DNA from: Antedon mediterranea
Lineage: Eukaryota > Echinodermata > Crinoidea > Comatulida > Antedonidae
DNA length: 64,000 nucleotides
Assembly: GCF_964355755.1 (NCBI RefSeq)
Contig: NC_092670.1
Coordinates: 18,785,201 to 18,849,200, forward strand
Direction: 5' to 3'
Positions 4,601 through 23,500 of this stretch are shown piece by piece. Position numbers and translations under genes: made by a program. Each line of letters starts with the position of its first letter. The stretch's first letter is position 1. Under the pieces are notes generated by a model. It made no database searches, was not told where the DNA came from, and saw only the letters and a program-made list of their open reading frames with translations.

Positions 4601-7600
4601 TTTACATCTTAACCTGTAATGTAAATTAATCCAAATTAAAATGAAATTGTGTTTGAATAATATTGTATTATTTCTTTACTTGATGAAATTAAAATGTCAG
4701 AGTAATCAAAATTTAATTAATTTATAAGAGACAGTGAAATAATATTTATTAGTTTCCAGAATGTTCTTCTTTATATTACTGATGGTGAGAGGCAAACAAA
4801 AATATCTTAATTGTGCTGTCAATGATTTTGTCAGTTTTTAAGCTAATTCTATTTTCTGAAATATTAAATGATGGGAGTCCATTGCGTAAGATAAAAAGAA
4901 CTTCTTTGATTTTATAACTATCTATAATTGATATAGGCATGGATCTGAAACAAATAAACTACTCACTCAAAAAATATTATAATTTGAAAAATCTATATCT
5001 AACAGAAGGGAATTTGGGGTGAATTAAAATTGTAAAGTTGAAGTTTTAAAAAACTGTCTCTACAAACTACAACTAGTTTATTAAAACTCTTTAAAAATGT
5101 AAATATGTATTTGGCTTCACATGCAGTATAAAATAACTAAACTAAAAGCTATTTTTTAGAAATAAAATTTTAAATAAATTTACTACATTGTAACAATAGT
5201 GTGCAAATAGTATTGTTCTTAGTGGCATTGCAGCTACTTTGTTAGATCCTTGCCTGCCAATATTAGAGTATTTGGTTCGGTCCAGTATTTTAATATGTAT
5301 CTTTTCGTAATAGTCACCAGCGAAATTATAACAATGTTTACGGTACAAGAAAAAATGGCACATGATATGAAATTAACCAATCAAATGACAAGTATACACT
5401 CAGGTGTGTTATAATCAATGATAACCAATGCCACTGTGTAAGCATAGACAGACTTCCGGAAGTGTACCAAAGTTCTTATCATTTTTTTTATGAGTTAATA
5501 ATTTGGAAAAATTGTCTACCATTGTGTGCTGAAACACTTGAGATATAATTATTGAAATATGACTTTCAGTGGTTGCTCTGCCTTACTTCCACAATACTAT
5601 TTGCACACTAACTTTAAAAAAGTAAAAGTAAACACACCTCCTTTTTAACTGGTATTTCCCAATCTTGGGACAGGTTGAAGGCAAAGTTTGACAGCACCCG
5701 TAACTCGCACTTAATCTGAACCCAACCGGGGCTACGCATGAACGACCACGGATGGTACCATTTTTCAACTATTTGTTCACATGAGCACAAACATTCTAGC
5801 CATAGGTGGAGAGCTTGCTCACTGTAATAAATAAAAGTTTAAGAAAACATGTAAAAAAGTTACTTTGTGTTACATAGTACAACCCATTCTTTTTAGGACA
5901 CCCCATTAAGGGGACACTACCTATGAAACAAAACAAAAATAAATGTGACTAAAACGCTGTCTACACTGTCAAACTTTATATGACAAAAAAATGTGATGTG
6001 CCCATATATGGACACGTCATATTACTACCCCATATTTTGGCACATCACATTTTTTTGTTACATAAAATTTGATAGTGTAGATAGAGCTTTACCCATGTGC
6101 AAATATACTAATATATGGTTCTGCACTGGAAAGAAAGCTGATGATGGGCAATACATGATTCAACACCTTGACCAACACCTATTCAGGGACCACTACTATT
6201 AAGGGAAGATTTCATTAGGCCCCAAAGGCATTCCTCTAATAGGGGTTCTGATATGAATTGAAATGCAACACAAAAATCTTGAAATATCTCAATATGATTC
6301 AGATTTTTTTCTTCTACATTTTGCCTTGTCATATTGATGAATGCAACAAATACAAACATAATTCCTATTCAGCCCTAGTTCCTGTCTTTATCTTTCAACC
6401 TACTTTTATGCAGTTTAACAGATAATCTTCCAAAGATAGGTATTAATACAAACATAGAAAGATTGATTTTATAGATGAAAATATGCTGAAATATTTAGAG
6501 ATCATCTTCGTTAAAGCATTATTGGGGGCGACAGTTAAAGTCAAAATATTCCTGATGCACAATCATCCATACATATATGGGGTATCAAAATGAAAGTGGA
6601 ATGGTACTGGATAGGTTTTAAACTACATGAACTGGCCCTGGGGATGAAATTGCGGGCGTATTTACACTATATAATAATAGAACTTTCAGCTTGGAGAATT
6701 TGTTTGTTTGCTAATAATAGCCACCAAAACTGTGAATATGACATATAATATGTTTACAGTCCTCAACTAAACACCGCAATCAATCCTCATAGAATTAATG
6801 ATATTGACAAACCAATACAAACAGTGCAGCTTGCTAAACCAAACAGAAGCTGTTGATGAATTAATTATGTTTAATTACAATTACTGCAGTACATTTCATA
6901 ATTCAACTGCAGTAATATCTGAATATTTTCCACAGAGATTTTTTCATTATTTCATTCATTCAAAATATTGAAACAGTGTAAAGTTCTGTCTACACTATCA
7001 AACTTTATGTGACAACAAAATGTTGGACACAACGATAACATAATAGGTATTGTACTGTAAATATCTATAAAATGTGGTGGTTTTTTGCTATCAATTTTTT
7101 CTGCTGCAGTAACTGCAGTAGATGGTGTTGACACGGTCATTAAGCTTTCTTTGCTATTTATTATAGATTGATGTATGGCGAGATGACAGTTATTAGTTGA
7201 AATGTCAAAAATTGTCAGACAGCATATTTTAAGTTGGTTTTCCATCTACAGTCAATATAGAAGACGCCTACATTCAGAAGATGTCTTCAGTACATTACAA
7301 AATATATTTAATATACTTAAAATAATTAACACTTTCTTCTCAAATAATGTGATAATTAGACCACAGAAAAGTGATCCGTAATTGAATAGGTTTTAATTTG
7401 AAGGATATTTAATTTGGGGGTTATTTAATTTGAGGGTACTGAATTTATTTTGGGAGCATTTAATTTGAGAGCATTTAATTGAAGGGGTATTAAAGAAGGG
7501 GTATTAATTTAAGGGATATTTAATTTGGTGGCATTCCATTTAAGGGGTACTTAATTTAGGGGCATTTAATTTGAGTGCGTTTAATTGGAGGGATATTTAA

Positions 7601-10600
7601 TTGAAGGGATATTTAATTGGAGGGGTATTTAATTGGAGGGGTATTTAATTGAAGGGGTATTTAATTGGAGGGATATTCAATTGGAGGGCATTTAATTGGA
7701 GGGGTATTTAATTTAAAGGGTATTTAATTGAAGAAGTATTTAATTTGGGGGCATTTAATTGGAGGGATGTTTAATTTGAAGGCATTCAATTCGAGGGTAT
7801 TTAATTTGAGGGAATTTAATTGAAGAGGTATTTGTTGGTTGTCTTTTAATTAGTTGAGTAAATTTTAATTTTATGGAGTCTTTAATTGTAAAAGTCTTTA
7901 ATTAGAGGGAGTTTTTATAAACATAAAAGTAAAGTAAATAATGTGAAAAAAACATATCTTATGATGAGGTAATTTATGTGTTTTTCTCAATTTATAATAC
8001 ACAATAAAAGCCTAAGGATTATACTGATTTACCCATTATCATAAAAATAGAAATATTGAAATGCAGACTCATTTTTCTTGTTGATGGTTTGAATCTTGCT
8101 TTCTTCTGCGGTGAGGCATAATATTCTTGAATATATATTTACATAGGATGTCTAAAGTAATTCATCATAATAAAAATTGACGATTTAGTTTGAGATTGTT
8201 ATTCCTTTAATGTTACATGACTTTTTGAACTTATAAGACGTGGAGTGACTGAACCTTAGGGGTGTGGTAAATTCATCGTGGTGTTTCCGGTCAGTGAATA
8301 ACGAACAACATTTCATTTTAGCACGTAAATGTGCGTATGCAGAAATTACTGATTGAACAATAAACAATTGCATTCAAGTTTTGGTGGTAAGGCTTAGCTA
8401 ATCATGATCAAGTAATGATACCGAGGTAGGATTTAAACCCAGGATTAGATTTACAGGCAAGCTACCAAGATGCAGTGCCACTAAAATACAAACCTTTTCT
8501 CTCTAGTATTGATTCTAGTAAGTTCAGATGAATTAAAGAACATTATTTGTCAGCATTTAAATCATAAAGTTTAGCTATATCATTTGGAAATGAATTACAG
8601 GTATATTCATATATGCCAAAACATATTATAACAATATCCACTAATGGATAGAAATACCGAACCAAAAGGCAAACTAAGCTAATACAATTACGTGAAAATA
8701 TTTTATATTAATTATTATAAATATTATTCTATTCTAAAAAAAATCTATATACATAGATACTATATATCCAATCTGCAGACAGTACTGTTTCGATCTTATT
8801 AGATCTCGTCAGTGCAGCTCAGGTTTTCGAAATGAAATGTACCGCAGAACTGGCACAATATATAGGCTGAGTCAGGTATGTGGGACATGGTACACTGATT
8901 ATATATAGCAAACAGAATTTCTATGTTTTTTCTTAAAACAAATGACAATAAATGATACTTGACTTGACATTAAAATTAAATAAATACTTAGCTGTATATG
9001 ATTTAATTGTAATTTTTCATTTTCACCAATGTTGTGACAATATGTGAAGCGCTGCTGATTATGAGGTTTTCATAGAAATGGGTGCTATATAAATTTTAAT
9101 GTTAATAGCAACAAGTTACTGCAAAGAGACCAACTTACTTTAGTCCTAAGCACATTAACGATCGGAACTTGACATCCATCTGAGCATGAGCAGTGTCATG
9201 TGACAGGTTTACAGCTTGAACTGAACGATACAGAAGTTCTTCAGGTGTAAGAACCTTTCCGTCCTCATCCAGCCTATAACGACAAATAAACCATAATTAA
9301 AATTTAAAATGTTTAGTTTCAACATCCTCTCCCTCAATAATTGTTTGAGCCACATCATTTGTTTGTACTACTATCCCATCGAAATTGCATGCATGACTAC
9401 CATTAGGCATTTATTCTGGGGTGTGTACATTGCAACTGGACTTTTATACTATCAGTCTCATTTCAAATAATGGACATGAAACTAACATTTCATTTTTATT
9501 TGCCTTAATGTATAAAACTCTGTCTACATTTAGCAAACTAGTTCGATAAAAAAAAGTGTGATGTGCCCAAATGTGGTAGTGATGTGCTTAAATGTGGTAG
9601 TGATGTGACCAAATATGGTAGTGATGTGCCCAAATATGTTCATCTATGGGCACATCACTTTTTTTTTTCACATAAAGTTTAATAGTGTAGACAGAGCTTA
9701 AGAAAATGTTTTTCCATACTTGAAATGCAAAACACGATTTTATAAAATTCAGACTTTTTATGAGGATTATCAGTACATTTTATATTAAGGTATTATTTTC
9801 AAATTTTAAGAAAAACCATTTCAAGATATCGAAACACTAAGATTTGTGTGCAGGCTTAGTTAGTTTCTAAAAAAAAACCTCCCCGTATAAATAACATAAT
9901 ATGTCATGAGGCACGTACCTGAATGTTTTACACAGTACTAATCTTGAATACACAGAATCAAAGTCCCTTTCAACTTCTTTTGCTGCTGCCTATAAGTATG
10001 AATAACATTTATAATTACTGTACTTATTTGGGTGGAAATACAAGTTTGGGTAGACGACAAACCACAGTGGGGTTGTATTAACATTTTTGGGGGTAGGTGT
10101 TGAATTACATAGACATTGTAAATTGGTATTAATAATATTTGTTTCATATACAATCACCATCATCATCTATTACTAAATTTTACTGTTGTTATAGACATTT
10201 GGTTTACACCTTTTTAGTAGACGTACATAGTTTTTTTGGATTGATGTATTTGCTTTTATAGTTACCGTATAAGACCGAGTAGTCCTAGGTGGGCCAGGGT
10301 ATGAAATTTGGGGGAAATTAGAGGCTGGGATTAACATACTATGGTTACATTAAAAATGGAATTCACCAAAGTCTGGTGTCAGAATTTAGCCTAAAATAAG
10401 GGGTGGTATTATATACTCGAGTATAAGATGTATAGATATTCGGTATGGTATTGTTTTCTTATCAAATCGGATATACAGTACAAATTTACTTTGCCAGGGA
10501 AGATGTGGATTTTAAAGTTCATTTATGTTTTAAACATTCCAAACATCTACTATGCCAAACATTGACACCACATCAAGTGTATAACCATCACAAAATGTCA

Positions 10601-11568: not shown

Positions 11569-14500
11569 TATATATTATTATACAAAGAAAATGAGTCCTT
11601 CACCCAGGTCCAAAATCTTTCATAAAGGTTTACTCAACAAGTTGACCAAAATTGTCATCACGTTATTCTTATAAGTTTAACTCAAATTATATACAGAAAT
11701 ATATCCTCCGAGGAAAAGCCTTGGATGGCCTACTCAGTAGACAGAATTTGGGTCAGTATTTCAGGTTTACCTGGTTGAAAGATATCAAACAAGGAAAATC
11801 CTTGGACATGACCTGATTTGTATAGGTTTCTTGACCTATAGAAGTGAGCCTGGCTATAGAAGTGAGCTTGGCTATACCATATGCAAAATCTAAGCTACAC
11901 ATACTGTATGAACATGATTAACTGGTAGGAACATACCTCTTCAAGGAATAACCATGGATGGCAGGGTCCACCCAGAGTAGATGGTTGCTTCATCCCATGT
12001 CCAAAGATTAGCTTCAAGCTTGGACACAGACTGATTAAAAAAGTGATAGTAGTAGTTCCCATCCACGCCACAAGTTTAGTAGAGAGAGAGAAGAAAGACA
12101 AAATCACCAGGTTAATATAGACAATAAGTGCACAACAGAAATACCATATTTTTACAAATTAGTACATTGTATTATACATTTCTTAAGCTTGGTTCCCACT
12201 AGAACGTAACGACGTAAACGCAACGCAAGCGTTTTAACCAATGACAAGCGAAGTTATAGACAGTTAGCAATCACAAGCGAATAAGCCATCGCTTGTGATT
12301 GGTAAATTCACTTGCGTTGCGTTACGTCCTTGTGTTGCGTCGCTAGTGGGAACCACGCTTTATGTGCATAATGTACTGTACATTGTTCCAGTATCAAAAT
12401 GTTGATACAAAATTTGAAATTGGCTTTATTTATTATTTCATCATTCATTTGTATTGTTTAAACATGTTGTTAAACATTGCCTTTAAAATTGTCATCATCA
12501 TCGTCATTTACTTGTATTTTCTAAACACTCAACATGTTGAGAAACGTTCTCTTTAAATTTGTTTTAATTTTGAATTAATTCATGATTATATTATTGTTAT
12601 CATATATCTCTAGATTTTAGCAGTATTTTTCTCTTCATAATTGCCATATTATTGCTATTGGAAGACTATTATTAATCTCTTGGTATTATTTGCATCATTG
12701 TTAGTTGTTAAAGCATTAAAATAGTTTGCAATCATTAGTACACAAATTAGTGGTTATGGTTAGTGTAAGGTTAAAGTTCAAAGGTGACCCAAAAGGTAAA
12801 TTATTTGTAAAAGCAGACAAAAACAAATGAGGATAATTTGGTTGTTTTTTAGTCCATCTGCAGTTTTTTGAAAAAAAAAAAAAAAAATCGAAGATGGATT
12901 TGTCAAATCAATCAATTTAAATGCTATTTAAACAAGCGATTTATGCCAGCTAACTCCAAACAAAACCAAGCAAATTGTGCCTATTTTGTTTATGTCTGCT
13001 TGTAAGTAGCCCAACATTATTATTAGCAAAGATGTTAGTCCACGGCATAAGCATGCGTGAGTGTTAAACCTCTGTCAGCAACCATTAGAAATTTACCTCT
13101 TCAATAAATAGCCAAGGATGGCTTATGCCACCCAGCACGGATGCTGCCTTTATGCCGTTCATAAAGATTTTTTTAATAACTCTACTGAATCTGTTTGTAT
13201 AAATGTCAATAAACATGTTTTTTTTATATTTCATAAAGAATATTTTAAAAATTAATGTTAAATACATAAAAAGGTCTGTTAATAAAAAATATTTTTAAAT
13301 GGTATAGTAAAAAGTCAAATAAGTTAAAACGATTATGAAAATAGTTACGTCATTGTAAAAAAAATTTGAAATAAAGCATAGTGCAAACATTTAAAAACGT
13401 TTAATTTATTGAAAAATGTATGAAAACTATTCCATATTCAAATGAAGTAAAACATTGCTGCTATACACTTATGTTTGCATGGTGAATAAGATTTGTGATG
13501 CACCATCTTATGCTTATATTGCATCACGGTTATCAAGTAGTATTAAGCTCTGTCTACACTATCAAGCTTTATGTGACAAAAAAATATGGTAGTGATACGC
13601 TTAAATATGGTAGTGTTATGACATCATCATGTCCATATATGGGCACATCACATTTTTTTGTCACATAGATTTTGATAGTGTAGACAGAGCTTAACATTAA
13701 AATAAATGTAGTTATGATGTCTTAAAAAGGACTGATTAAACTTACGACCCCCTAACAAGATCTGTGATGACCTCTGTAACCGTGTCATCTCCAGCACTCG
13801 TATACATTTTACTTCGTTCATCTAAAAGTTCAACAAACTTTGCTGGAAACCATCCTGATAATCAAAAAATATAATAGTCAATAAATTACATAAAGATAAA
13901 TCTCTAAAATAAGTAATGACCAAGTAAAAATGTATGTGGCCCTACCTCTCAGTCCATTTAATTCACCAACCCAGCAGTGTTCATCCTTTTGAGAAATTAT
14001 CTAAATTATAATTAAAGTTTCATTTTAATATAGCAAGGAGTGAGTTAATGATATGTACACGATACCAACAGGGCAGGGACTCCTCAAAATGGCTGCCGTA
14101 TATATGTTCAAAAATATTATTTAGTATTATTAAAAATATTATGGAGAGGAGCAGAAATCGAAACATACATTAATTCTTAGAATTTATTTATTAATGTATT
14201 ATTATAGTGTTGCCCGAAAGCTCTGCTACTTTTTCTGGCTGTTTTACTATAGCTTTTTGCTTATTTTATTTTGTATCTCCATTGAGATCCAGCCACTGAT
14301 ATCCACAACATTGTTCATTTTTTTCAGTAATTTGCCTTTGGATTTAATCTATTATTATACATACTTGTTGATGGCAATACAATTAAATTACTTCTTGGTA
14401 TTAATATTGTATAAGACTACTTTCTTGTGTTGAAATCAAACAAAGTGGCAGATTTATGTCTGTTGTATTTTGCTTAAATAAACAAATTAATTACAGTACA

Positions 14501-17500
14501 TTCTTAGAATGTTAATGTATACTAACGTCAGAAATTAAGGAGAACTAGATCAGTTAAATTGAATTTGGTTCCAAGAAAAGTACTCACTGTAATAACGTCA
14601 TTTTTGCGGAAGCCCAGTTCATCATCGTCGTGACGTTCAAAATCAAGCAATGCTTTTGCTCTCCGTCTTCTTGTTCGTGAAACTGCTACAAATTGCTCGT
14701 GGTCTTTGTGATGGCTACCTAAACTGTAGTCTGGAAGGAGACTCTGTAAATAATAGAGCATGTTATTGTTATAACAGTATGGAATAGTTAGTGCAATTGA
14801 CTACAGAACAGCAAGTGTGTACATTGAACGGCCAGTTTTAAAGCTCTGTCTACACTATCAAACTAGTTGGACAAAAAAAGTGTGATGTGCCCAAATATTG
14901 TAGTAATATTGTTTTTTTGTCACATAAATTTTGATGGTGTAGATAGTCCTTATCCGAGACACCGGAAGTAAGTACATTTTTTTAAAAAGTAAATAATCAT
15001 ATACTGTAAAAATCATCGCCAGTTTCTTTGACTATAGAATTACAAGGGGTGTTAAATACCCTTAGAGCTACATCTTTTGAGCTCGTAAGCTCTGTCTACA
15101 CTATCAAACTTCATGTGACAAAAAATTTTGATGTGCCCATATACGGACATGACGATGTCATATCACTACCATATGTGGGCATATCACTTCCATATTTGGG
15201 CACATCACACTTTTTTGACAGAGCTTAAGCTGTATCCAAAACATTGGAATGGAGAAGAGTACGCATTTGTCAATACTATGGAATAACAACAACTGGATAT
15301 CAGCTAAAATACCATAGCACCCATGGACTGTGAAAAACACAAACTGGACTTACAACTTTTGAATTTTTGGGGTCAATTTGTTGAAAGTGTCTGCCCAATT
15401 GTAGAATAGCTTCTCTTAAGTCTGTTATCAATTCTGTCTGTCTGATATTCTTGGCCTTCAGATCTTCTGGTTTATCATCTTGACCTATATACAACATTGT
15501 ATATCAATACACTCAGTTATCAAGATTATTTTACTGAAGTTACTGCATTAAATGTTTAATATGCATATTCACTTTAATCTTCTCCGTTTTTACAGTATCT
15601 ATGCTATATTAAATTTAAATAATCACCTATGATGATGTATGACTAGTTGCAGTATAAACACAAAAAGGTATTCTGGATAAATAAAATAGCCTAAAAAGGT
15701 AAAATTATTGTGAAAGTACATGAATAAAAGAGACTTACCAAATAGAAGGCCTGTAAAGGATTTTCGCCTTTGAAGATGTCTTTTATTAAGATGCTAAAGA
15801 AACATAAAAGAATTGTTTGTAATTTAACTTTCAAACGTGTAACTTGTGAATCTACATTCTAAAACCCTAAAATGGAAGATATTGGACTGAACTTACTTGT
15901 TTGGGTAGGTTTCCAGTGTTTTCTGGGTTCACTATTGCACCTTGGTCCGCCATTAAGTAAGCTAAATGCTTGCGTCTATGAGTATCAACTACCACGTCTG
16001 TCAGGGAGGTAGATGTCTTCATTCCAACCTAAAAATGAAGAAAAATCACCTCATAGTTAATTTAACAGAGATAATACTGTTTATTATACAAGTAATAGAA
16101 AACAGTTTTTGTTCTGTCAATGTACATACAATATATAGTATAATGGCAGTAAAGTCAACTCTCCCAATAATGGATACCTTTGGGTTGACCTAATATGTCT
16201 GATTTTCTGGACAGTCTGGTATTCAGAATGTTTTTTTAATGTTAAAAATGAATTTGGGACCTTTGGTGCCTCAAGAAAAGTCTGGTTTTGGGAAAGTTTA
16301 CAGCTTTTAGAGAGTCCGGTATAAGGAGAGTCGACTATTAACATAAATTTAATTTAAGTTGTTTTGACTATAATAAAAACTATTTTACTACTCTGTACTA
16401 CACATAGCCCTCTGTTGCTTGTGCATTATTATATGTGTATTATCTACAGTTTTCAGAGCTGAAAGGCAAAGGAGGTTGTAGATTAAAGACTCACATGATT
16501 TCTATACACTAACCCAATATCAACAGATATAGGAAAGCAGAAAACCGATGACCACAGTGAATGATAGGGATGATCAACAGATAGAAGAGCTTGACAATAG
16601 AACCAATGGTAACATGATAGTATAAGACAACTATGGTGTACAGTAGTGATGTTGATGAGTGCATGTTAGGCTGTGCCTACACTATCAAACTAGTTTGACA
16701 AAAAAATTGTGATGTGCCTAAATATGGTAGTGATATGCCTAAATATGGTAGTGATATGACATCATGTCCATATTTGGGCACAACCAATTTTTTTGTCACA
16801 AAATTTGATAGTGTAGACTGAGCTTAAGAGTGATTTTAGATAGTTTATAGATGATCACTACTGACAGTAGTACTAACATAAAATACCGTACTATTTGTTT
16901 CATACATATCCAACTAATTACAGAATGGATAAACTACAGTATCTTTATAAACTAAGTCATTTGAGGCTTAGAGAGTGGAGTAGTTTGACAGTTGTGAGGT
17001 ACAACCCTGGCAATAGGTCAGCATTTAACCCAGGCATTAAATCAGCATTGAACCCTGGTACTTGGTCAGGATTGAACCCTGGCGCTAGGTTAAGATTGAA
17101 CCCTGGCACTAGGTCAGCATTGAACCCAGGCATTAAATCAGCATTGAATCCTGGTACTTGGACAGGATTGAACTCTGGCGCTAGGTCAGGACTGAACAGT
17201 GGCACTACGTCAGGACTGAACCGTGGCACTAGGTCAGGATTGAACCGTGGCACTAGGTCAGGACTGAACCGTGGCACTAGGTCAGGATTGAACCGTGGCA
17301 CTAGGTCAGGACTGAACCATGGCACTAGGTCAGGATTGAACCGTGGCACTAGGTCAGGATTGAACCGTGGCACTAGGTCAGGACTGAACCGTGGCACTAG
17401 GTCAGGACTGAACCGTGGCACTAGGTCAGGATTAAACCCTGGTACTAGGTCAGGACTGAACCCTGGTACTAGGTCAGGACTGAACCGTGGCACTAGGTCA

Positions 17501-20500
17501 GGACTAAACTGTGGCACTAGGTCAGGACTAAACCCTGGTACTAGGTCAGGATTTAACCATGGCACTAGGGTCAGGATTGAACCCTGGTACTAGGTCAGCA
17601 TTGAACCCTGGTACTAGGTCAGGATTGAACCCTGGTACTAGGTCAGGACTGAACCGTGGCACTAGGTCAGCATTGACCCTGGCACTAGGTCAGCATTGAC
17701 CCTGGTACTAGGTCAGGATTGAACCCTGGTACTGGGTCCGCATTGACCCTGGTACTAGGTCAGGATTGAACCCTGGTACTAGGTCAGGACTAAACCGTGG
17801 CACTAGATCACAATTTAACCCGGGATCTTGAGTATAAGTGAGGATTATGATATATAAAGTGTACGGCAATGCTAAAAGACTATCAGCATCCTCTGTCTAT
17901 AAGCATTTAGCAAACCACACCAGTTGTGGTTGAACACAGCATTCTGCAATGAACACTTGTAGAACAAACTTACGAAGAAAAGAAAACACTGATAATGATT
18001 ATATATACAATCCGTTTGCATGAACAACTGCTTACCAACCTCCACAACCTGTTAAAAGCACTCAACCAATAAATGATCTATCAATTACAATTGTTATAAT
18101 TTTTAACTTTGAACAACCTGGCTAGACTATGACATAGCTACATATGTGGGTTTTGTTTATTAAATGCCTAATACTTCTATATTGACATGATATCCCAGGT
18201 AAATAGAATGTAAGTAAGTCATTCTTTTTGTGACTCTCTTAAAATATCCTGATGGTAATAATATTTACTATCAATTTTAACAATATTTACCATAATCAAC
18301 TTGCGAACATCATCAATTTCTCCAGGAAGATCTGATAAAGCGTTAAATATTTGAGCGGAGTTTTCTAGTTCTAGTAATTCTTCTTCCTATATAAAAATAA
18401 AATGAAATAATAAATACAATAATCAGAATTACGTTTAATATATCAACTACATATTCCGTTCATGCACATCACAGAAAAGTGGTTTGAGGTACTAATTGGT
18501 GGCTAACTTGTGCCTAAAAAAAACAACGAGTTTACGATTCGCATTAATTGTGCATATATAGGGACTGCGAGATGTGTTTCTTCAATCCATTCCGCGACAT
18601 AGTTTGGTGGATACCAAGCCGCGGCAATGATCTAACTATGAACTAAAAATGAGTAGGTCCTAGGTAGTTGCAAATCGAATGATCCATAATATTCAATGGA
18701 TGGAATGTTTCTGTAAATTCTAGTGCCTATACTTACCGTCACCGGATACATCATTGTCTAATATCATCACATGAACAAAAATCACAATTAACTAAAATAT
18801 TATCCCAAAATATCTTCATAATTTTGTATAACATTCAGAATAAAATAAAATCAAAAACAGATATTTATTCTAAAAGAATATTATTACTCCAGTCTGCATA
18901 ATAGTAGTATAGTTTCCATTGAATAGATAGCTCCATATGGCTGGCAATATCCAGATATGCTGTTAAACACACAGGCTGTGCCTATGTAATTGTTCGTTGA
19001 TTAATAACTGATTCTATTTGTTAGGGATGATAACAATAGAAACAGATGTTCTGCTACTGAAGTCTCATAATATTATGCAAAAAATGGTTGATTCAACATT
19101 GAGAGGCTAATGGTTAAACCACAAAGGTACCAATTAAAACAATTCATTTAATCCAATATGTTCTAAATCATCTTGAAAATGAAACAAGTGTACAACAATA
19201 AACAGGTGTTTTTTGTTCTGTACAAGTGCTTTCTTCGTGTTTTATTACTACTTGTCTGTTCTTGAAAACAATAAGAATCTTTTTTTTTTCTATGGATATA
19301 ATTTCTATTCTGTTTTTTTTATTAAGGGGACACTTTCAGATGTAATGATCAGAAGGGAAAATACATAAATTAAACCGTAGTCAACTCGTATTCAGTCACC
19401 CCCCCCCCCCCCCCACACCCACCCCGTTATGGGAGGAAATTTGTTAGGTCTTAATGGTGTCCCCTTTTATAGGGATTCCACTTTTACTAAACAAACTGTA
19501 TGTTTTTTTTAAGTAACAAACTTGCCTTCATTTTAAGCATTCCCAATGCAACTTGGAAGAGGATAACAGAGCCCTCGCTGAAAAACATGTCCCAGATACT
19601 GAGCAAGACTTTGATGTGAACCACACTAGCAAACGCCGTTAAAAACCAATGTAATGTTATTAACGACAATTCTGAAAATAAGAAGAAATACCTAAATTAA
19701 AAGGATGGAGTACAGAATAATGTTAAATTATATATAGAAGTTAACAAACACATCCCATGCACATGACACATGTAACCCAGTGGTGTAAAGCAGAGGTCTT
19801 GGGTGTTTTTAGCATTTTTGACATATTTGAATGCCTGTTTTTTCCTCTGGACACGGCCCCTGAGTTTAGCCAGTGAGTGCTCATAGTTGTTACGCCACTG
19901 ATGTAACCATTAAACTTACGAGGTAGGTAAAGTCTTGTGGGGTGTACATAAAAACACATTTATTACCTCCACTAAGGAAGATATCAAACTTATTCATATA
20001 TATTCATTACCAAGCAAGTACAAATTACATTATGAATATAAATTCAAGAATACATTTACGAACCAATGTCATGATTCTGCAGTTGTTTATCAAGCTGTGG
20101 CAAGTAACTAACTAGCAATTGTCGAAGCACTCGTTGATCAGCCTGTAAAAAATAATACATTAAGCTCTTTCTACACAAGTTTGACAAAAAAAGTGATGTG
20201 CCCAAATATGGTAGCAATATGCCAAAATAAGGTAGTGATATGCCTAATTAAGGTAGTGATATGCCTAAATATGGTAGTGCTATGACATCATCAGGTCCAT
20301 ATATGGGCACATCACATTTTTTTGTAGACAGAGCCTAAAGTCTAAATCAGTATAGAACTCAAGTATACAATTGGATATGTACAAGAGCACACACAACATC
20401 AACCTCAAGGGCCACATCAGCTTATCCTCAAGTTATCTGGACTCTAGTTGAGTAGTATGATGCTGGTATAATTTGAAACCAAGGCACTGAGAATGAATTG

Positions 20501-23500
20501 CAAGTACTAGCAATTCTTTATTTTCATATTAGGTTACCTGGACATTTATAATGTACTCTAGTTGAGTATCACAATGCTGGTATTTTGTTTACATTTATAT
20601 ATATTTTTAAACATTTAGGCAAATTGCCAAGGATAACCTTTCCTGCCCACAAGACAAACATTATAGTTTATACACAAGATATTGTACATAAAGTTTTAAG
20701 CTCTGTCTACACTATAAAATTAGTTTCGACAAAAAAGTGTGATGTGCCCAAATATGGTAGTGATATGTCCAAATATGGTAGTGATATGACATCATTATGT
20801 CCATATATGGGCAAATCACATCACATTGTTTGTCACATAGTTTGATAGTGTAGACAGTACAGATCTACTTTAAGTATTTAGGAGTGGAGTTAATAACAAG
20901 GATGCGATAATTGAAACCCAGTGGGACTGCATGGCAAACACCACACCAGTATTTAATTTTATATTAGGTTACCTGGACTCCTAGTAATGTGGTTGAGTAG
21001 TATGATGCTGGTACCAGGTCCTCAATTATTGCACACATCATCCAGAATGCATCCTCTTCTTCAAGGAATAATAGTAGTGAAGCTGCCATCTACAAAATTT
21101 AAAAAAAATGTTACTATGCTTTTTTAATACAGTAGAACACTACCTTTGGGACACCCCTTTTAAGGTTACACATTCCCATAAAATAATAATAATACTAATA
21201 ATAATAATAGTTCATTCTTATATAGCGCATATAGGCAAGCTCTCAATGCGATGAACATTATTACCCCAGGCAATTTTTTGGATCAAACACGTATGGAAAC
21301 ATACTCCCATAAATGCAGCTAGTAATCAGTGGAAAGCTTTGTCTTGATCTAACCGGGTTCCCATACTCCCATAAAATGAACAAGAGGCAATATTTAAACA
21401 CTATGACCAACCAACTGCTTAATATGTAATAATTTCACTTCAGAGCAAAAATTCAGTAAAATAATTTTATTTTTTTGTTCCTTTCAGTGAAACATAAACA
21501 TAAAAAGGGAGCACTAAGGAGAGACAGGAGCTGTCAAAGACAACTGTCGCCAATGGGCGTGTCTCATCAACTTAACATGGTTCATAAGAAATCTTAGTTT
21601 CCATAAAATAAAATGGCCAATGTGAATGACAGTTACCACGCCAGTGCCTTGACAATAGCCTATATCTGGATACAGCCACGCTAGCGCCCTCAAGATACGT
21701 CTAAGTCGTGGAACACCGGTCGCATTCTTTGAACAAAAACATGCATTGCTTGGCATTGTACGTAATAAATCCTGAAAGAACAATTTAATTATAAACTTGT
21801 ATTTCAATTTGTTTAAATTGTACTATTTTTAAAAACAAAACTAAAACATTTTTTATATTTCATGGAGTGAATCCTTATTTAGTAAAAACAGTTAAGTTAA
21901 AGTTTAGTAAAGGTTTAAAGCTGTGTCTACACTATCAAACTAGTTTGACAAATATGGTAATGTTATGATGTCATCGTGTCCATTATTATGAACACATCAC
22001 ATTTTTGTGTCACATAAAATTTGATAGTGTAAACAGAGCTTTAGGATAAGACAGTATTTTATAATTAAATTTAACTGAGCTTTTAGGTAGCATAATTCTC
22101 TTGTTTATTAGTACAATACTATTTTTTCCGAAATGAAAGATTGATAATAAAAAAAACAACAATTTGTTGTATTTTAGTTTCATTTTACATTTGTCTCATT
22201 GCATACCATTTATGCTAAATGATATACTGTAACTTGTATCCTTGTACAAGACAGGAAAGGGTAGGGCCTAGCAGTCAAGAGGACGTGCTTTATCTCCTAT
22301 ACAATATTACACCTAAGGCTTTATAGACTCTTATCTGCGTTATCATCTGTAGTCCGGTAGTTTTATCTTGGTAATCAGGCCGATACCGTTTTATTGACTC
22401 AGTGTAAATATTTGTCTTTTTGAATGACGAAAACAATAAATGAAAATTGGGGTGTTCAAATGTTGAGGTCAAATTATATATCACAGTAAATACTATAGAA
22501 AAGGATGTGGGTAGGGGATTTAAATATTTTGCTATTTCTGTCTTTAGTTATCTTATTGTCTTTGTAATATTAAAGATAATACTGTACATTAAAAAGATAT
22601 GGTGTGACTTAAGCTATGTCTACACTATCAAACTTTATTTGACTAAAAATGTGACGTGCCCATATACGGACATGATGATGTCATATTACTACCATATTAA
22701 AGCATATCACTACCATATTTGGGCACATCACACCTTTTTTGTCAAACTAGTTTGATAGTGTAGACAGAGTTTTAGGCTGACTTACCTTTTCAATTTGTTT
22801 TGCTGTTAGCGTGTGATCATTCTGACTTGCTTTAATAACTTCCTATGAGAGAAATAAAGGAAACATTTAAACAAATTGATAGATTGAGATGGGAATCAAA
22901 TTACAATTTGGGACAGCTTAAGTACAGCATTGATAGTAATATCCAATTTGGGAAAAATGTGATCTATAAATTTAGTATTATTCATATCTGAGTAGAATCT
23001 TTTTCATGGTTTAATTGAATTAGAATTTTAAAGAGCGCCCTCTCAGGCACTGTAATGCATCTTATGTTTAATAGATATTTTGATACATTGTATCAAAATA
23101 TCTTATGAATATGAATTATACACTTATACATACTTACACAATATATCTACAGTAAATAAAATGAAATGGGTTGAGAGGGATAAGTAGGAAAATGTACTGT
23201 TTCATTTGCAATAATATATATATAATTACTGCAACATTTTATTCTATTACTTTTTTTACTTTGTTTGTTTTGTGTATTGGATGCCTTTTATTAAAGGATG
23301 CCCATTTGGACTATAAGTGTATAAATTATTACTACTAATAAACTATATTTAAATAAATTGATCTTGCCTTGTATGTAGTTTCACTTTCTTTCTTTTTTAG
23401 TAAAGCCCCTGAAAATCTCATCCATAGTTGAGGTCGCATGCTATGAGGAATGCCAGACTTGATCATTCCACGCAGTTTGTCAGTTAATGGAAGCTTTTGA

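Follow-up and report, generated by a model that had tools for sequence, protein, structure and literature searches.

Frame-incompatible tandem mutually exclusive exons are a well-known kind of alternative splicing, and a stop well upstream of later exon junctions leads to nonsense-mediated decay (NMD) of the message. SGSM3, the gene considered here, regulates Rab/Rap and contains an SH3 domain as well as a RUN domain; to our knowledge, partner choice by RUN domains is poorly known. According to its main text, the human atlas of mutually exclusive exons comprises 1,399 exons in 629 clusters, and in 60% of the clusters the exon lengths are not divisible by three (PMC5740500). The exons Ab and 3 of human U2AF1 (U2AF35a/b) are tandem, homologous and, in practice, mutually exclusive; when both are included a stop is met and the message undergoes NMD, and the selection is made at the branch point and the pyrimidine tract (PMC5224494). 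Regarding exons with distant branch points, all those known experimentally are alternatively spliced, and PTB controls several; human exons with AG-free zones of at least 100 nt are enriched for alternative splicing, and in human introns zones of this length are made by chance about half the time (PMC1431707).

The exon pair described here was studied in a window of 64,000 nt (the whole stretch of Antedon mediterranea DNA that was analysed). With the clusters of the human atlas it shares equal length, equal phase, homology and frame incompatibility if the exons are joined; the species is another one, and the main text of the atlas names no SGSM gene (PMC5740500). As for U2AF1, frame incompatibility would act as the enforcer of the choice between tandem homologous exons (PMC5224494), although the gene and the protein are unrelated and exclusivity, proven experimentally there, is what we infer for SGSM3. 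The search for earlier reports covered the open-text literature, as distinct from genomes, and there we found no report of a mutually exclusive exon pair in SGSM3, vertebrates included. The pair would add a new case to a familiar class of alternative splicing, and the splicing arrangement in itself is ordinary.

The host gene lies on the minus strand and occupies the window from about 24.8 down to about 5.6 kb. The Pfam domains that it encodes are, in order, RabGAP-TBC (146 bits), SH3_1 (46.7 bits) and RUN (105-114 bits). Among solved structures, the closest match of its SH3 domain was mouse RUN and TBC1 domain containing 3 (2yuo; E 6.7e-38), the second best having an E value of 2.4e-15. Judged by the TBC-SH3-RUN order and by the match of the SH3 domain to 2yuo, the gene is SGSM3 (RUTBC3), as an earlier note on this DNA had called it. 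The same two features liken it to the mammalian SGSM3/RUTBC3/MAP/CIP85, from which it differs in that no alternative RUN exon has been reported for the latter in the literature searched.

The exons of the pair, A and B, and the features around them are collected in Table 1. Both are flanked by AG/GT and have identical phases: in each, the first nucleotide completes a codon begun in the preceding exon and the last nucleotide closes a codon. A 1,066-nt intron separates them. They align without gaps, with 57 identical nucleotides out of 94 (61%) and 17 identical amino acids out of 32 (53%); identity is highest at second codon positions (24/31, against 16/31 at first and 17/32 at third positions). 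The two equal exons that the earlier note had placed here were found with the length, phase and positions it gave. Its 20-letter peptides, however, are not in register with each other; correctly paired, the exons correspond over 32 amino acids each. The BLOSUM62 score of A against B was 82, the next match to either of them in the gene scoring 12-15, and for the remaining exons of the gene no partner scored above 26. In a search of the 354-Mb assembly the only matches were A, B and the neighbouring exon that they share; an intact third copy was absent from the whole assembly. These scores, together with the genome search, rule out a chance similarity of the two exons.

Table 1. Coordinates in the window of the exon pair and of the features associated with it
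Feature	Positions	Strand	Remarks
Upstream constitutive exon	13746..13854	-	109 nt; end of SH3 and linker; donor GTC/GTAAGT
AG-free zone and AG of exon A	13191..13275	-	83 nt; second longest of 16; limits approximate
Exon A, diverged version	13097..13190	-	94 nt; acceptor score 0.08; donor GAG/GTAAAT
AG-free zone and AG of exon B	12031..12181	-	149 nt; longest of 16; limits approximate
C-rich polypyrimidine tract TTTTGTCTTTCTTCTCTCTCTCTACT	12078..12103	-	within the AG-free zone of B, about -73 to -49
Exon B, conserved version	11937..12030	-	94 nt; acceptor score 0.89; donor GAG/GTATGT
Probable decayed third exon copy	11695..11808	-	alignment to exon B extends into its donor region; many indels; GT lost
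Downstream constitutive exon	9919..9989	-	71 nt; encodes 23 aa
Further RUN exons	5638..9273	-	first starts at 9273; next 5821-5638

By homology and Pfam match, it was confirmed that A and B encode the initial part of the SGSM3 RUN domain in two alternative versions. Precisely, either exon gives a full RUN match, in agreement with the placement of the pair at the start of this domain in the earlier note: the score is 104.9 bits with A and 114 bits with B (cut-off 22), and the match covers positions 2-130 or 1-130, respectively, of the 131 positions of the profile. The family consensus is kept less well by A, which lacks the LCP of B; the corresponding motifs are LCPSLK..G.GMK in B and FSRVIK..MNGIK in A, and the RUN domain of Iporin, with LCPAVRAVLEDGLK, resembles the former. 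Solved RUN domains were matched weakly by sequence (Iporin 6if2, E 0.0055; Rab6IP1 3cwz, E 0.8). Because of its higher RUN score and its motif likeness to Iporin, B is probably the ancestral-like version and A the derived one; human SGSM3, we assume, reads like B in the matching segment. Form A has basic residues at R4, K7, K8 and K15, and form B at K7 and K15; as acidic residues are equal in number, the additional R4 and K8 make form A more basic by two charges. Reported partners of the SGSM3 RUN domain are RAP proteins and merlin (PMC11725557). It is a fair hypothesis that the swap would retune the choice of GTPase or of another partner.

We examined the four ways of joining the exons to their neighbours. 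With A alone or with B alone the frame stays open through the RUN domain. Since 94 nt are 31 codons plus one base, using both exons or neither shifts the frame, as the earlier note had reasoned, and leads to a premature stop: a TGA is met near the end of B when A and B are joined, and a TAG in exon 9989-9919 when both are skipped. Two or more exon junctions follow each of these stops, and NMD would therefore be expected for both kinds of message, which is consistent with NMD as the enforcer of the exon choice. Two other modes of exclusivity were considered and are unlikely: steric interference, given the length of the intron between A and B, and U2/U12 incompatibility, given that neither donor is U12-like and both exons are ordinary GT-AG exons. 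With these set aside, frame incompatibility is the visible enforcer.

Splice sites were scored with matrices built from the SGSM3 gene itself. The donor matrix was built without the entries 21642 and 23368 (wrong cut base or non-GT). The donors of A (9.1) and B (11.3) are among the strongest of the gene; the three introns contain 198 other GTs, all with lower scores. The acceptors of A and B are instead the two weakest of the 16 in the gene, scoring below all the 14 others (2.3-15.7) with a matrix that rests on 14 sites of one gene; thus, of the good splice sites that the earlier note had seen at both exons, the donors stand and the acceptors do not. In fact, 22 out of 136 intronic AGs score equal to or above the acceptor of A, and 15 out of 136 equal to or above that of B. 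Both acceptors are preceded by long AG-free zones, those of the other acceptors of the gene being of 18-77 nt; intronic gaps between AGs as long as 83 and 149 nt make up 2.2% and 0.65%, respectively, of such gaps in the gene. Weak acceptors together with long AG-free zones favour a regulated use of the pair.

The C-rich pyrimidine tract in the AG-free zone of B has no equal elsewhere in 18 kb of the gene. This zone also holds branch-point-like sequences at -82 (ATTAAC) and -129 (ACTAAT), with nearer candidates at -14 and -46; closer branch-point candidates are present for both A and B. Exon B looks like a distant-branch-point exon and might, as a guess from these motifs, be a candidate for repression of the PTB type. 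In its long AG-free zone and in a pyrimidine tract far upstream of the acceptor it resembles the known exons of this class (alpha-tropomyosin, alpha-actinin, PTB exon 11), but its 149 nt, although beyond the 100-nt mark, are at the low end for the class, its branch points are sequence candidates, and control by PTB would be a guess. RBFOX-type sites amount to one GCATG (position 13056), on the downstream side of A, and make no case for RBFOX.

Downstream of B, the segment listed in Table 1 as a probable third copy aligned with exon B with a local score of 42, a value reached by 0.4% of shuffles (P 0.004), or about 0.02 after six comparisons. With the two exons themselves set aside, nothing else in the window matches B as well as this segment and a neighbouring one. 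We consider the former as probably a third exon copy that has decayed, the evidence being moderate. In the same intron, 81 nt from it, there is a weaker fourth segment (11695-11870 for the two, minus strand). The third copy and the fourth segment suggest that a larger exon array may once have been present, and with two intact copies and a decayed one the locus seems to show the birth and the death of alternative exons together.

If A were a dead or dying duplicate, B alone would be spliced into SGSM3 mRNA. A is indeed the more diverged copy, its RUN score is 9 bits lower and no acceptor in the gene scores below its own. We nevertheless judge this reading unlikely: exon A has an intact frame with neither stop nor indel, both splice sites, a donor among the strongest and conservative replacements, and the probable third copy displays what decay looks like at this locus, namely several indels and a lost donor, none of which is seen in A. 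A comparison of synonymous and non-synonymous rates gave dN 0.40 and dS 1.56 (NG86) or dN 0.41 and dS 0.89 (LWL85), that is, a dN/dS of about 0.25-0.47 between the copies; the signal goes in the direction of constraint and is modest, resting on one genome with P values of 0.001-0.07. We also simulated neutral divergence, leaving aside the lack of indels in A and its two kept splice sites. With all the differences placed on A, the observed amino acid identity with no stop was obtained in 0.1% of the runs; with 5, 10, 15 or 20 silent changes first taken by B, it was obtained in 0.5, 1.0, 3.6 and 6.7% of the runs, respectively, so that a neutral model with many silent changes on B reaches a P value of up to 0.07 and leaves some room for a dying A. 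On the whole, exon A looks maintained.

Quite unlikely, in our view, is that competing RNA structures, and not weak acceptors and NMD, impose exclusivity. A complementary helix of 14 bp can join exon B (12009-11996) to the intron (11810-11797), with the donor of B looped out, and it is the strongest among the 11 exons tested (P 0.004 against shuffles). However, when tiles of 94 nt are drawn at random from the window, 2.6% do as well, its counterpart is missing at A (P 0.085), the fold of the whole region is ordinary (z -1.05), and its intron arm falls in the probable third copy. A docking-site/selector mechanism requires intronic complementarity at both exons, and here the helix was found at B only. 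We regard as very unlikely a role of A as a poison exon, or as a cassette of rare use, that when included beside B lowers SGSM3 output through NMD, with protein form A being of minor importance, for, even if A+B gives a stop ahead of later junctions, a poison exon does not need a homologous open frame of 31 codons, and the amino acid conservation between A and B at second codon positions points to a role in the protein.

The best explanation, which we consider likely, is that a tandem exon duplication in SGSM3 produced A and B as alternatives to encode the beginning of the RUN domain, that each mRNA would carry one of them, that exclusivity would be enforced at least by the frame, with double inclusion or skipping leading to an early stop and NMD, and that the acceptors would probably set the choice, B being possibly repressed by a pyrimidine-tract protein of the PTB kind. 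The anatomy, the frames, the homology and the weak acceptors are observed at the locus; from these we infer, as the best reading, a mutually exclusive use of A and B. The use of both exons in RNA, the NMD, the regulator and any effect of form A on GTPase or merlin-like partners are putative. A further-reaching reading, which we hold to be less likely than not, is that an animal lineage evolved a RUN splicing switch from an array of at least three copies, and that in certain tissues the more basic form A picks a different partner, either a small GTPase or a protein like merlin. If RNA confirms the pair, SGSM3 outside vertebrates has an additional RUN domain version that is introduced by splicing. 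Such a natural pair, with 15 differing residues confined to one segment, would offer a ready means of testing how RUN domains choose partners.

Other features were observed in the introns of the gene. One intron, on the minus strand, is of the GC-AG type, with its donor at 23368 (ACAAG/GCAAGA) and a normal AG acceptor at 22842. Another contains a minisatellite (16877-17896) with long open frames on both strands and a unit of about NPGTRSGL / SPDLVPRF, which is likely not a gene. In the intron between A and B there is an inverted-repeat element with ends AAGCTTGGTTCCCACTAG (12185-12360). Short inverted repeats with ends AGCTCTGTCTACACTA are found at 13538-13699, at 9515-9702 and in several other introns, and they apparently form a MITE family with many copies in the window.
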